Assembly: GCF_003428645.1 (NCBI RefSeq)
Contig: NZ_QVQH01000007.1
Location: 124,001-188,000, forward strand
Source of the DNA: Geodermatophilus marinus
Lineage (GTDB): Bacteria > Actinomycetota > Actinomycetes > Mycobacteriales > Geodermatophilaceae
Direction of reading: 5' to 3'
Length of the DNA: 64,000 nucleotides
The notes under the pieces were generated by a model. It saw nothing but the letters and a program-made list of their open reading frames with translations. It searched no databases and was not told the DNA's origin. Below are positions 1-61,468 of this stretch, piece after piece; positions within the stretch are counted from its first letter, which is position 1; each line of letters begins with the position of its first letter. A program made the position numbers and the translations under genes.

Positions 1-1364
1 ATCGTCCCGTTCTGGTGCGCCACCCCGCCGATGCCGAGCTGGCCGCCGGCGTAGGTGCGGTTCTCGTGCACGTCGGACTCGCAGCGCATCGCGTCCAGCA
101 GGCCCTCCAGCCGCATCCGCAGCCGGGCCACCTCGGCCGCGTTGGTCCGCCGGTAGTGCAGGCTGATCCGCCCGTCGCGGTCGACGGTCACCCGGTTCTC
201 GTCCAGCGGCAGGTCCTCGGTGGTCAACCAGAAGTCGATCGAGTGCCGGGCCAGGTCGGCCGGGTCCCGGGCGTCGGGGACGTCGAAGCCGATGAGGACG
301 GCGTCGCTCTTGCCGTTCATCTGGATGGAGCCGACCGGGTACTCCCAGCCGGGGTCGAACGGGTCGGACCAGTAGAAGTCGTTGACCCCGAGCGTCTTCT
401 GGAACCGGGTCGGGTTCGGCGTCCGCGAGAACGCGACCAGGCCCGAGTTGTTGTGCAGCATCAGGTGCCGGCCGACGTGCCCGGAGCCGTTGCCCAGGCC
501 GGCCGGGTGCCGGTCCGACGTCGAGGACAGCAGCAGCGCCGCCGAGTTGATCGCCCCGGCGGCGAGGACGACGACGTCGGCGGTGTACTCCTCCCGCTCG
601 CCGTCCCGGTCGACGACGACCCGCGAGACGCTGCGCCCGGTCGGGTCGGTCTCCAGCCGGACGACCCGGGCGCGGGTCCGCAGCTGCACGTCCGGGTACC
701 GCAGCGCGGGCTCGACGGTCATCACCTGCGCGTCGGCCTTGCCGTTGACCAGGCACGGGAACCCGTCGCAGGTCGCGCAGCGGATGCACGCCGACAGGTG
801 CGGTCGGGCCTCGTCGAGCAGGATGCCGTTGGGCAGGGAGAAGGGGTGCAGCCCGGCCGCGGTGAGGTCGGCACGCAGCTGGGCGATGCGCGGCTCGTCG
901 CTGATCGCCGGCCACGGGTAGGGCCCGCTCGCCGGCGGGTCGTCCGGGTCCTCGCCGCGGGTGCCGTGCACCTGGTACAGCGCCTCGGCGCGGTCGTAGT
1001 ACGGCGCGAGGTCGGCGTAGGAGATCGGCCAGGCCGGGGAGACGCCGTCCACGTGCTGCACGGGGCCGAAGTCGCGCTCCCGGAAGCGGTAGAGGATCGC
1101 GCCGTAGAACTTGGTGTTCCCGCCGACGTAGTAGTGCTGCTTCGGGGTGAACCGGCGGCCGTCGGCGCCGTCGGTCCACTGCCCGCTGTTGGCGTAGCGC
1201 TTGTCCGCCCACAGCGCCTGCGGGTCCCAGTTCTGCGGTTCGCGGCGCAGCCGGTCGCCGCGCTCCAGCAGCAGCACCCTCTTCCCGGTCGGGGCGAGCG
1301 CCCAGGCGACGGCACCACCGCCGGCACCCGACCCGATGACGACGACGTCGGCGTGCTCGCTCAT
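1..1364 (-). CDS. GMC-family FAD-dependent oxidoreductase (C-terminus cut by window edge)
   Basis: About 454 residues are visible and the C-terminus lies beyond the left edge. The N-terminus carries a dinucleotide-binding Rossmann motif (VVVIGSGAGGGAVAWAL), then the GMC-type flavin attachment region (YYVGGNTKFYGAILYRFRERDF) and a Cys-rich stretch (CIRCATCDGFPC) seen in the long-chain alcohol/sugar dehydrogenase branch. Such enzymes oxidise an alcohol or sugar hydroxyl with FAD; the substrate is not readable here. The ATG start is preceded by GGAGAGG, and the upstream cyclase gene ends 13 bases before it. It is the last visible gene of a four-gene operon. Confidence 0.9.
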   Translation of the reverse strand, partial: MSEHADVVVIGSGAGGGAVAWALAPTGKRVLLLERGDRLRREPQNWDPQALWADKRYANSGQWTDGADGRRFTPKQHYYVGGNTKFYGAILYRFRERDFGPVQHVDGVSPAWPISYADLAPYYDRAEALYQVHGTRGEDPDDPPASGPYPWPAISDEPRIAQLRADLTAAGLHPFSLPNGILLDEARPHLSACIRCATCDGFPCLVNGKADAQVMTVEPALRYPDVQLRTRARVVRLETDPTGRSVSRVVVDRDGEREEYTADVVVLAAGAINSAALLLSSTSDRHPAGLGNGSGHVGRHLMLHNNSGLVAFSRTPNPTRFQKTLGVNDFYWSDPFDPGWEYPVGSIQMNGKSDAVLIGFDVPDARDPADLARHSIDFWLTTEDLPLDENRVTVDRDGRISLHYRRTNAAEVARLRMRLEGLLDAMRCESDVHENRTYAGGQLGIGGVAHQNGT

Positions 1365-12481: not shown

Positions 12482-13876
12482 GTGCAGCTGCCCGACGGCC
12501 TGGTCGCCGTGGTCAAGCGCGACTGCCCGACGTGCGTGCTGGTGGAGCCGGTGCTCCGCGGCCTGGGCGCCGCCGTCTGGTGCCAGGACGACCCGGGTTG
12601 GTTCGCCGGTGACGACACCTCGCTGGAGCTGTCCTGGCGGCTGCGGGTGGAGACCGTCCCGACCCTGCTGCGCGTCGAGGGCGGCGCCGAGACGGCCCGG
12701 GTGGTCGGCTGGAGCCGGCCGCAGTGGGAGGAGCTCAGCGGGGTGAGCGGGCTGGGCGCCGGGCTGCCCGAGCACCGGCCCGGCTGCGGGTCCCTGTCGG
12801 TGGACCCCGACCGGGTGGACGCGCTCGAGGCCCGCTTCGGCGACGGGCTGGCCAGCCGGCGGGTGGAGCTCGCCGACCGCGAGGACGAGCACGAGGCGGC
12901 GTTCGCCCGCGGCTGGACCGACGGGTTGCCCGTCGTCCCGCCCACGCCCGAGCGGGTGCTGGCGATGCTGCGCGGCACCTCGCGGGACCCGGGTGAGGTG
13001 GTGGCCGTCGTCCCGCCCGACCTCGTGCCGTGCACGGTCGAGAAGGTCGCGGTCAACGCGGTGCTGGCCGGCTGCCGGCCCGAGCACCTGCCGGTGGTGC
13101 TCGCCGCGGTCGAGGCCGCCTGCGCCGACGAGTTCGCCCTGCACGGGCTGCTGGCCACCACCTACTTCTCCGGCCCCGTCGTCGTCGTCAACGGCCGCAT
13201 CACCCGGCGGATCGGCATGAACAGCGGGGTGAACGCGCTCGGCCAGGGCAACCGGGCCAACGCCACGATCGGGCGGGCCCTGCAGCTCGTCGTCCGCAAC
13301 GTCGGCGGCGGCCGGCCCGGTGAGGTGGACCGCGCGACGCTGGGCAACCCCGGCAAGTACACGTTCTGCTTCGCCGAGCGCGAGGAGGGCAGCCCGTTCG
13401 CGCCGCTGGCCGCCGACCGCGGGGTACCGGGCGACGCGGTCACCGTGTTCGCCGGCGCCGGGGTCCAGCCGGTGGTCGACCAGCTCAGCCGGGACCCCGG
13501 GTCGCTGGCCCGCACCTTCGCCGCCTGCCTGCGCTCGGTCGCCCACCCCAAGCTGGTGCTCGCCTTCGACGCGCTGCTGGTGGTCTCCCCGGAGCACGGC
13601 CGGGTGTTCCGCGGGGCCGGCTGGGACCGCGCCCGCCTGGTGGCCGAGCTGGAGCAGCTGCTCACCCTGCCGGTCGGGGAGCTGGTCCGCGGGGCCGGGG
13701 GGATGGCCGAGGGGATGCCGGCCGGGTCGGGTGCCGACGAGCTGCCCAAGTTCCGGCCGGGCGGGCTGCTGGTGGCGCACGCCGGCGGGGACGCCGGGCT
13801 GTTCAGCGCGGTGATCGGCGGCTGGGTGTCGGGGACCTCGGGCAGCGCGCCCGTGACCAGGGAGGTACGGACATGA
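12482..13876 (+). CDS. Thioredoxin-like protein fused to a large conserved domain, partner of the UGSC selenoprotein
   Basis: 464 residues. The first 100 residues look like a thioredoxin fold with a CxxC motif (Cys15-Pro-Thr-Cys18 in VVKRDCPTCVL) and a cis-Pro-like VETVPTLLRV. The remaining 350 residues form a conserved domain starting at WTDGLPVVPPTPERV, with VAVVPPDLVPCTVEKVAVNAVLAG, NSGVNALGQGNRANATIGRALQLVV and NPGKYTFCFAE. I cannot assign a reaction to this domain. Its stop overlaps the start of the UAG-containing UGSC gene as ATGA, so the two are produced together. A redox relay between the CxxC and the Sec/Cys centre of the partner is plausible but inferred. Confidence 0.8.
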   Translation: MQLPDGLVAVVKRDCPTCVLVEPVLRGLGAAVWCQDDPGWFAGDDTSLELSWRLRVETVPTLLRVEGGAETARVVGWSRPQWEELSGVSGLGAGLPEHRPGCGSLSVDPDRVDALEARFGDGLASRRVELADREDEHEAAFARGWTDGLPVVPPTPERVLAMLRGTSRDPGEVVAVVPPDLVPCTVEKVAVNAVLAGCRPEHLPVVLAAVEAACADEFALHGLLATTYFSGPVVVVNGRITRRIGMNSGVNALGQGNRANATIGRALQLVVRNVGGGRPGEVDRATLGNPGKYTFCFAEREEGSPFAPLAADRGVPGDAVTVFAGAGVQPVVDQLSRDPGSLARTFAACLRSVAHPKLVLAFDALLVVSPEHGRVFRGAGWDRARLVAELEQLLTLPVGELVRGAGGMAEGMPAGSGADELPKFRPGGLLVAHAGGDAGLFSAVIGGWVSGTSGSAPVTREVRT

Positions 13877-14391
13877 GGACGGTCCTCGACCCGACCGGCG
13901 AGCGGGCGCCGGCGTCCCGGCAGCTGCGGCCACGGCCCGACGGGCTGGCGGGCCGCACGGTGGGGCTGCTGGACATCTCCAAGGCCCGCGGGGACGTCGT
14001 CCTCGACCGGCTGGCCGAGCTGCTCGAACGCGAGGGCGCGCGGGTGCTGCGCTTCCGCAAGCCCACCTTCGCCCGGCCGGCGCCGGTGGACCTGCGGCAG
14101 GAGATCGCCGAGCGCTGCGAGGTGGTCATCGAGGCACTGGCCGACTAGGGCTCGTGCACGTCGTGCAGTGTGCACGACATCGCCGACCTCGAGGCCCGCG
14201 GCGTGGTGGGGGTGTTCCTGGCCAGCGAGGCCTTCGCCGAGGCCGCCCGGGTGCAGGGGGAGTCGCTCGGCTTCCCGGCGCCGGTCGTCCTGGTGCCGCA
14301 CCCGGTGCAGGACCGCACCGACGAGGAGCTGCGCGCCGTCGCCGAGGCGGTCGCGCCCGCGGTCGTGGCGGCGGTGACCGGACCCGCGTGA
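13873..14391 (+). CDS. UGSC-family selenoprotein with selenocysteine encoded by in-frame TAG (codon 92)
   Basis: Read through the TAG at 14146-14148, the gene encodes 172 residues. The 91 residues before it end in VVIEALAD. The 80 after it begin GSCTSCSVHDIADLEARGV and run on in the same frame to a TGA. The family is named for the motif Sec-Gly-Ser-Cys, and here the stop codon sits exactly at the Sec position (U92-G-S-C95-T-S-C98). The base is TAG rather than the usual TGA. UAG-decoding tRNA-Sec has been reported in Geodermatophilus and Blastococcus. A hairpin resembling a bacterial SECIS begins 3 bases after the codon. The gene overlaps its neighbours on both sides (ATGA upstream, GTGA downstream), which argues against a dead gene. 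The alternative is a nonsense mutation in a Cys version. The biochemical role of the family is unknown to me. Confidence 0.85.
14149..14180 (+). promoter_or_regulatory. SECIS-like hairpin downstream of the in-frame UAG
   Basis: A perfect 8-bp inverted repeat (TCGTGCAC at 14152-14159, GTGCACGA at 14170-14177) closes a 10-base loop that begins with G-U. It lies inside the coding sequence immediately 3' of the recoded codon, where bacterial SelB binds. It also encodes the conserved SCTSCSVHD residues, so coding constraint contributes to its shape. Confidence 0.7.
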
Positions 14392-14951
14392 CGGTCGCCG
14401 GCAAGCCGCTCCGGGACGTCGTCGCCCCGGACCTCGACGTCCTCTTCTGCGGCATCAACCCCTCGCTGCGCTCGGCGGAGGTCGGGCGCCACTTCGCCCG
14501 GCCGGGCAACCGCTTCTGGCCCGCCCTGCACCTGGCCGGGCTGACCCCGCGGCGGCTCACCCCCGCCGAGGACGGCGAGCTGCCGCGGTACGGCCTCGGC
14601 GTGACCAACCTGGTGGCGCGGCCGACCCGCACCGCGGCGGAGCTCACGCCCGCCGAGCTGGCGACGGGCGCGGAGCTGCTGGCGGCGCTGGTCGACACCT
14701 GGCGGCCCCGGGTGCTGGCGGTGCTGGGCATCACCGCGTACCGCACCGGGTTCGGCCGGCCGCGGGCGGTGCTGGGCCGTCAACCGGAGCGGATCGGCGG
14801 CGCCGAGACGTGGGTGGCGCCCAACCCGAGCGGGCTGAACGCGCACTTCCAGCTGCCGGACCTGGCGCGCGCCTACCGGGAGCTGCGGCCGGACGGGTGC
14901 CCGGGGCGTGCCGGGACCCCTCCTCCCGGTGCGCCCGCGGGTGGCTGCTGA
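14388..14951 (+). CDS. mug: Mismatch-specific uracil/thymine DNA glycosylase (Mug/TDG family)
   Basis: 187 residues. The uracil-DNA-glycosylase fold is shown by LDVLFCGINPSLRSAEVGRHFARPGNRFWPALHLAG, which contains the family motif GINPS, and by the minor-groove loop VAPNPSGLNAHF. The enzyme removes U or T from G:U and G:T mispairs, relevant to cytosine deamination in a very GC-rich genome. The GTG start overlaps the selenoprotein stop (GTGA). The low-complexity C-terminal tail (GCPGRAGTPPPGAPAGGC) is probably not part of the fold. Confidence 0.9.
   Translation: MTVAGKPLRDVVAPDLDVLFCGINPSLRSAEVGRHFARPGNRFWPALHLAGLTPRRLTPAEDGELPRYGLGVTNLVARPTRTAAELTPAELATGAELLAALVDTWRPRVLAVLGITAYRTGFGRPRAVLGRQPERIGGAETWVAPNPSGLNAHFQLPDLARAYRELRPDGCPGRAGTPPPGAPAGGC

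Positions 14952-59725: not shown

Positions 59726-61468
<1,743 letters not shown>

Follow-up and report, generated by a model that had tools for sequence, protein, structure and literature searches.

Does an amber codon inside an otherwise open gene mark a lesion, or does it specify an amino acid? The question is raised by a reading frame in the 64,000-nucleotide stretch of Geodermatophilus marinus DNA analysed here (the window, on contig C67 of a 5.23-Mb draft in 71 contigs, completeness 100, contamination 0.02), in which TAG occupies the selenocysteine (Sec) position of a UGSC-family protein. Mukai et al. (2016) are said to have described UAG-coded selenocysteine in Geodermatophilaceae, and the original prediction for this locus invoked a UAG-reading tRNA-Sec reported for Geodermatophilus and Blastococcus. 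The available part of PMC5330540 confirms that precedent: it gives a CUA tRNA-Sec in three Geodermatophilaceae, credits formate dehydrogenase (FDH) and UGSC-motif selenoproteins to Mukai et al. 2016, and adds the AhpC gene of Blastococcus saxobsidens to the UAG selenoproteins. On the strength of that text UAG-coded Sec in this family, UGSC included, is in print, so that the window gene taken alone is a further case of something known; what is new lies on another contig of the same genome.

The UGSC frame and its neighbours

The frame (Table 1) opens with ATG, reads ...EALAD-TAG-GSCTSCSVHD... and closes with TGA; the TAG is its sole interruption and is followed by 80 sense codons. Its read-through product matches NCBIfam NF041046, 'UGSC family (seleno)protein', over residues 27-168 (146.8 bits, cut-off 125) and Pfam UGSC over residues 3-169 (153.7 bits, cut-off 25). 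It thus has both marks by which we assign proteins to the family, a profile match over most of the length and a U/C-G-S-C motif, here residues 92-95. Frame and profiles together bear out the placing of TAG at the Sec position with an 80-residue continuation, as originally predicted. The four-base overlaps foreseen at the two ends are also seen: ATGA (13873-13876) with the upstream open reading frame and GTGA (14388-14391) with the glycosylase frame, whose GTG start is our choice, an earlier in-frame GTG being present. The protein model has a pLDDT of 92.6 and sets residue 92 between a strand (84-90) and a helix (93-108).

Table 1. Positions of the features discussed, in the window unless a contig is named
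Feature	Position	Strand	Basis or remark
Upstream overlapping gene, 464 aa	12482..13876	+	N-terminal thioredoxin-like part (CPTC), rest without family
UGSC-family gene, predicted selenoprotein of 172 aa with Sec92	13873..14391	+	Read-through frame and profile matches
In-frame UAG at Sec position, codon 92	14146..14148	+	Reading frame; family and phylum codon counts
SECIS-like hairpin, 8 bp (14160-14167 with 14171-14178), loop GUG	14160..14178	+	11 nt after UAG
Downstream overlapping gene, G/U mismatch-specific DNA glycosylase (mug-like)	14388..14951	+	NF007570 164.8 bits (cut-off 144)
CUA tRNA-Sec	G000:C11:15836-15927		Rfam tRNA-Sec 65.3 bits (cut-off 47); ARAGORN anticodon cta
UAG in formate dehydrogenase	C70 (L195), codon at 60432	-	ENQARI-TAG-HSATVPGL
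Second tRNA-Sec, anticodon UCA	C17 (L009) 1169-1263	-	Rfam 81.8 bits (G000:C17:1173-1263); ARAGORN
AhpD-like gene, in-frame UGA at CxxU position	C17 (L009) 1579-2157 including stop	+	Open frame

Sequence on the far side of the TAG behaves like that on the near side. Codon-usage scanning of the in-frame stops of the window and of the C17 and C11 stretches ranked the UGSC TAG first of 1499 when training had included the UGSC gene itself; trained without that gene, the scan gave the TAG the top score (0.44, listed second) among 583 window stops jointly with one other stop, which marks where two genes meet. A previous model, whose training was poor, had put it third of 1315. Compared with 35 family orthologs, substitutions at codon positions 1, 2 and 3 number 209, 304 and 619 upstream of the TAG and 282, 293 and 735 downstream of it, in comparisons that share one reference and so are not independent; their concentration on third positions on both sides indicates that both parts evolve as coding sequence. 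Close relatives with TGC or TGT at this codon, which the original prediction had named, together with a strain making no full-length product, as grounds for abandoning it, did not turn up among the orthologs compared: all 35, chosen among TAG-bearing family loci by the GSCTSCSVHD motif, carry TAG.

The upstream 464-aa protein is 96% identical to a 'thioredoxin family protein' of Geodermatophilus sp. SYSU D00758, and a profile built from 11 relatives matches PDB thioredoxins from E 1.9e-4; against Pfam Thioredoxin_2 it reaches only E 0.017 (15.9 bits, under the cut-off of 27), and its structural model, at pLDDT 41.6, is too poor to be read for function. Homology of UGSC to the glycine reductase component GrdB, which we take to resemble it in U-G-x-C and P-H-P motifs, was considered and not established: Pfam GRDB is absent from the 12 families matched by 31 UGSC members, and no chain described as GrdB stands among the matches listed for UGSC.

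Codon and hairpin at the Sec position

UGSC proteins are encoded in 54 of 112 genomes of the family, by 95 matches of which 72 contain one TAG, 23 no stop, and none a TGA or TAA. Every one of the 72 TAG matches is covered by the loci compared, and 17 of the 23 stop-free ones are represented there in their own right; at the Sec column, the 91 rows drawn from these 89 loci read TAG (72), TGC (14), TGT (2), TCG (2, one gene counted twice) and CAC (1, a stray partial match). The family members with a Cys codon belong to other UGSC types. A sample of 396 genomes from the phylum, our own among them, yielded UGSC matches in 29. Outside our genome there are 44 matches, all in genomes labelled as the same order or the same phylum: a single TGA occurs in 34 and no stop in 10, and TAG is not found in any. 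The Sec column of 29 phylum loci is TGA in 22 and a Cys codon in four, the remaining three being unplaceable. Read together, the two sets of counts indicate that the family has UAG where other actinobacteria have UGA.

The hairpin that follows the UAG reads GUCGUGCA-GUG-UGCACGAC. Among distinct UGSC sequences, a hairpin with 6 bp or more whose loop begins with G is found at the same place in 31/31 with TAG, 19/21 with TGA and 0/20 with a Cys codon, and the loop codon AGT has the same distribution (31/31, 19/21 and 0/20). The mean number of pairs formed, of eight, is 7.35 for TAG, 7.38 for TGA and 4.25 for Cys forms, though only six form in 10 of the 31 TAG sequences, a number that one Cys form also reaches. 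An alignment of 52 Sec-form sequences has 93.5% of its hairpin cells paired, two-sided change in 32 cells and a covariation score of 0.277, values that none of 500 shuffles attained for any of the three; the other two of the five measures are unexceptional, pairs with two-sided change being matched in 100 of 500 shuffles and pair types in 97. When the hairpin columns are slid by 1-3 positions, just 13.5-64.3% of cells pair. Folding of the single sequence is only moderately better than that of shuffles, with z -2.35 over 45 nt and z -1.19 over 71 nt; in a 30-nt piece a rival hairpin is favoured (z -1.26). We take the hairpin of the alignment for the SECIS of the bacterial pathway, to which SelB would bind.

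These data bear directly on a rival explanation of the locus, that it is a nonsense pseudogene, its Cys or Sec codon turned into a stop by mutation and its 3' half in decay. A stop inside an otherwise normal frame has that look, and database proteins end there, 86 of the 88 short UGSC homologs among 120 listed having LAD as their terminus; set against this are the identical TAG in 72 of the 95 family matches, the gene-like codon-position pattern downstream, a hairpin that accompanies TAG or TGA and not Cys codons, and a UAG at the Sec site of FDH as well (below), and we regard decay as extremely improbable.

A CUA tRNA-Sec and a second UAG gene

The original prediction proposed a search of the genome for selA, selB, selD and a CUA-anticodon tRNA-Sec; all four are present in one cluster on contig C11: selB, selA, the CUA tRNA-Sec and a divergent selD. 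The proteins score above their cut-offs (selA 406.5 against 267.9, selB 268.8 against 242.25, selD 379.8 against 125), and the tRNA has a long variable arm. A second selB over the cut-off was looked for in the genome and not found; one passes. The cluster is nearest to Geodermatophilus loci, with the best score, among 80 named records compared, to G. pulveris (84% over 4.3 kb). As to the anticodon, the expected CUA is there and the feared case of UCA alone does not apply, but an additional tRNA-Sec with UCA, described in the next section, had not been foreseen.

ARAGORN labels the CUA tRNA 'tRNA-Pyl', presumably because of its anticodon. The label is the point in favour of UAG being read as pyrrolysine, or of a CUA suppressor tRNA inserting some other amino acid there. 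We give this reading very little credence, given the Rfam tRNA-Sec score and long variable arm, the adjoining selA, selB and selD, and the TGA or Cys codon at the matching position in most other members.

Our own genome was searched for selenoproteins with UGSC, FDH and AhpD-like queries. The FDH gene on C70 has a TAG at what we take to be the position of Sec in E. coli FdnG, and after it comes an 8-bp hairpin with a GGUC loop. UAG thus stands at conserved Sec positions in more than one gene, UGSC and FDH. FDH is found at E <= 1e-60 in 48 of 57 sampled family genomes. Where a listed FDH row contains a stop, the stop is TAG in 51 of 52 cases; its position was confirmed in our own copy and eight others. 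The TGA in the FDH row of genome G107 (L305) was rejected as a Sec codon: this damaged copy lacks the Sec region and has two TGA side by side at the break.

Anticodons across 41 tRNA-Sec loci of the family are CUA in 33 and UCA in eight. Seven of the eight UCA loci (L027, L031, L032, L085, L086, L087 and L090) belong to genera g5, g8 and g10, in whose genomes no second tRNA-Sec match was found at E 1e-12; their UCA tRNA-Sec suggests that the switch to UAG took place inside the family. In one other family genome, G095, tRNA-Sec matches occur at C168 and C25 (66.7 and 66.5 bits), the first of which (L108) is CUA; the twin matches may stem from duplication or from the assembly.

Scanning named genomes for the CUA tRNA-Sec pattern gave 98 stretches, of which 80 were listed. 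Seventy of these carry genus or family names that we take to be those of Geodermatophilaceae. Three of the other ten (L210, L218 and L248) have a CUA tRNA that ARAGORN gives as of tRNA-Sec type; L218 and L248 are tRNA-Sec by Rfam also and resemble Blastococcus contigs over kilobases at 77-85%. Rfam tRNA-Sec is absent from the remaining seven. A 90-nt CUA tRNA in the Erysipelotrichaceae MAG RUG12586 (L263:2779-2868) is an ordinary tRNA by Rfam (57.9 bits), and is possibly an amber suppressor.

The intact read-through frame, the CUA tRNA-Sec, the selA/selB/selD cluster and the conserved hairpin thus make it very probable that the UGSC gene encodes a selenoprotein with Sec92 specified by UAG, and the original interpretation gains further support from the codon counts and FDH. 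By the established bacterial pathway, SelA would convert Ser-tRNA(Sec,CUA) using the selenophosphate made by SelD, and hairpin-bound SelB would deliver the Sec-tRNA at UAG in competition with RF1. The product would be a redox protein in which Cys95 and Cys98 lie near Sec92, and the thioredoxin-like protein encoded upstream perhaps serves it. Like the UGSC-containing selenoproteins of PMC2398784, as far as the available part describes them (PF24696, NF041046), it has the Sec-Gly-Ser-Cys motif and a full-length family match.

A second tRNA-Sec and a UGA gene on contig C17

Contig C17 carries the UCA tRNA-Sec, whose score of 81.8 is the best tRNA-Sec score listed for the family, and, starting 315 bp from it, an AhpD-like frame of 192 codons with one TGA, at 1870-1872 (...LNRCFY-TGA-MESHAEF...). 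Its protein scores above the cut-offs of TIGR01926, peroxidase-related enzyme (112.6 against 81.8), and of Pfam CMD (28.2 against 23), and below that of NF041238 AhpD_rel_CFYUT (51.8 against 175). Ours is the only family genome seen with both CUA and UCA tRNA-Sec, in a search in which 82 of 112 family genomes pass E 1e-12 and the limit hides slightly lower-scoring CUA tRNAs. An AhpD-like homolog occurs in 73 of the 112, with a stop in our own copy only.

Elsewhere in the phylum the UGA has counterparts. AhpD-like homologs occur in 51 of the 396 sampled genomes, and at the 29 other loci that could be placed the codon is TGA in 15, TGC in 13 and TGT in one. Among 120 listed of 233 protein homologs the residue at this position is Cys in 60, Trp in 59 and Leu in one; the Trp homologs of this listing (P0002-P0121) include the closest listed (P0002, 59% identical), and Trp here probably reflects a TGA that the gene caller translated with a different code. 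Genome G244 (L329:1501-2970) has a UCA tRNA-Sec at a distance of about 1 kb from an AhpD-like homolog that contains UGA, a proximity suggesting that the pairing may recur. Ten nt after our TGA is a 7-bp hairpin with loop GUU, of a quality met at about 0.4% of positions and of no special folding energy (z 0.04 and -1.24); hairpins of at least 6 bp are found in 7 of 16 UGA forms, our own included, against 1 of 14 Cys forms.

The tRNA and the gene lie in a low-GC island at the contig end: GC content is 0.687 over the opening 17 kb of C17, compared with 0.761 for the remainder of the contig and 0.776 for the window. The island is rich in insertion sequences, with transposases of ISAs1, IS110 and IS30 type by Pfam. 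Beyond it, C17:16001-34000 matches the same genus, at up to 3.7 kb and 80% (G009). A 770-base stretch of the island, C17:11786-12555, is 88% like C17:16551-17320, copies of which are found at 81-90% in most same-genus genomes searched. Near-identical plasmid DNA was sought and not found (seven records, each covering at most 12% of a 7-kb query, with two short matches on the tRNA); a plasmid tblastn for the UGA cassette returned 333 records, all below 60% identity; no viral-contig relative was found. No donor thus appeared among the plasmid and viral sequences searched.

Two tRNAs, both sorts of gene and one selB are present, and the likeliest reading of them is that the genome uses two Sec codons: an inherited UAG (UGSC and FDH, with the CUA tRNA-Sec) and an acquired UGA, in an AhpD-like gene that would have been imported with its own UCA tRNA-Sec, be expressed, and be decoded by that tRNA once charged, through the host's SelA, SelB and SelD. 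We consider this probable, judging from gene content. Alternatively UAG would be the only Sec codon, and the UCA tRNA-Sec and UGA gene silent passengers of an IS island or an assembly artefact. The low GC, transposases and contig end would suit such an origin, as would the other searched family genomes, with neither a UCA beside a CUA tRNA-Sec nor a stop-bearing AhpD homolog, the unremarkable folding of the AhpD-like hairpin and the failure to find a donor. Against it stand the best tRNA-Sec score listed for the family, an AhpD-like frame intact over 192 codons, with the four closest listed homologs 54-59% identical over 99% of the protein, and the match of the other part of C17 to the same genus; we consider this alternative unlikely.

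Use of both codons would set this genome apart from the systems to which its parts belong. With the published Geodermatophilaceae (PMC5330540) it shares the family, a CUA tRNA-Sec and UAG at FDH and UGSC-motif Sec sites; the available part of that source names no UCA tRNA-Sec or UGA selenoprotein beside CUA, and here there are both. A table there of genomes with two tRNA-Sec has eight bacteria, none of them Geodermatophilaceae. The island gene, with C-F-Y-UGA and its TIGR01926 match, is like the AhpD-like CxxU selenoproteins (PMC2398784, in the part available; TIGR01926), and differs in lying in a UAG-Sec genome beside a UCA tRNA-Sec and in failing NF041238. Aeromonas salmonicida, in the available accounts of Sec on a Cys codon (PMC10778597, PMC5756416), likewise has a tRNA-Sec with a changed anticodon, but its codon is UGU and its one tRNA-Sec has the anticodon ACA (PMC5756416). 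We found no report of a genome using both UAG and UGA for Sec in the open-licence literature searched, a scope outside which Mukai et al. 2016 falls. What is new, as read from the assembly, is a UCA tRNA-Sec and a predicted UGA AhpD-like selenoprotein gene alongside the CUA system in one genome of the family.

For the family, UAG stands at the very sites where other actinobacteria have UGA, with the downstream hairpin kept, an exchange implying that the fixed element of the signal is the hairpin, not the stop codon. The LAD ends of the short UGSC homologs, just before the Sec codon, expose a gap in annotation. If the second cassette works, G. marinus offers a natural test of whether one SelB can serve two tRNA-Sec isoacceptors and two stop codons, and of how a recoded lineage can regain its old codon; a tRNA-Sec and one selenoprotein gene would then be a minimal, portable Sec cassette, able to restore a codon that had been replaced.
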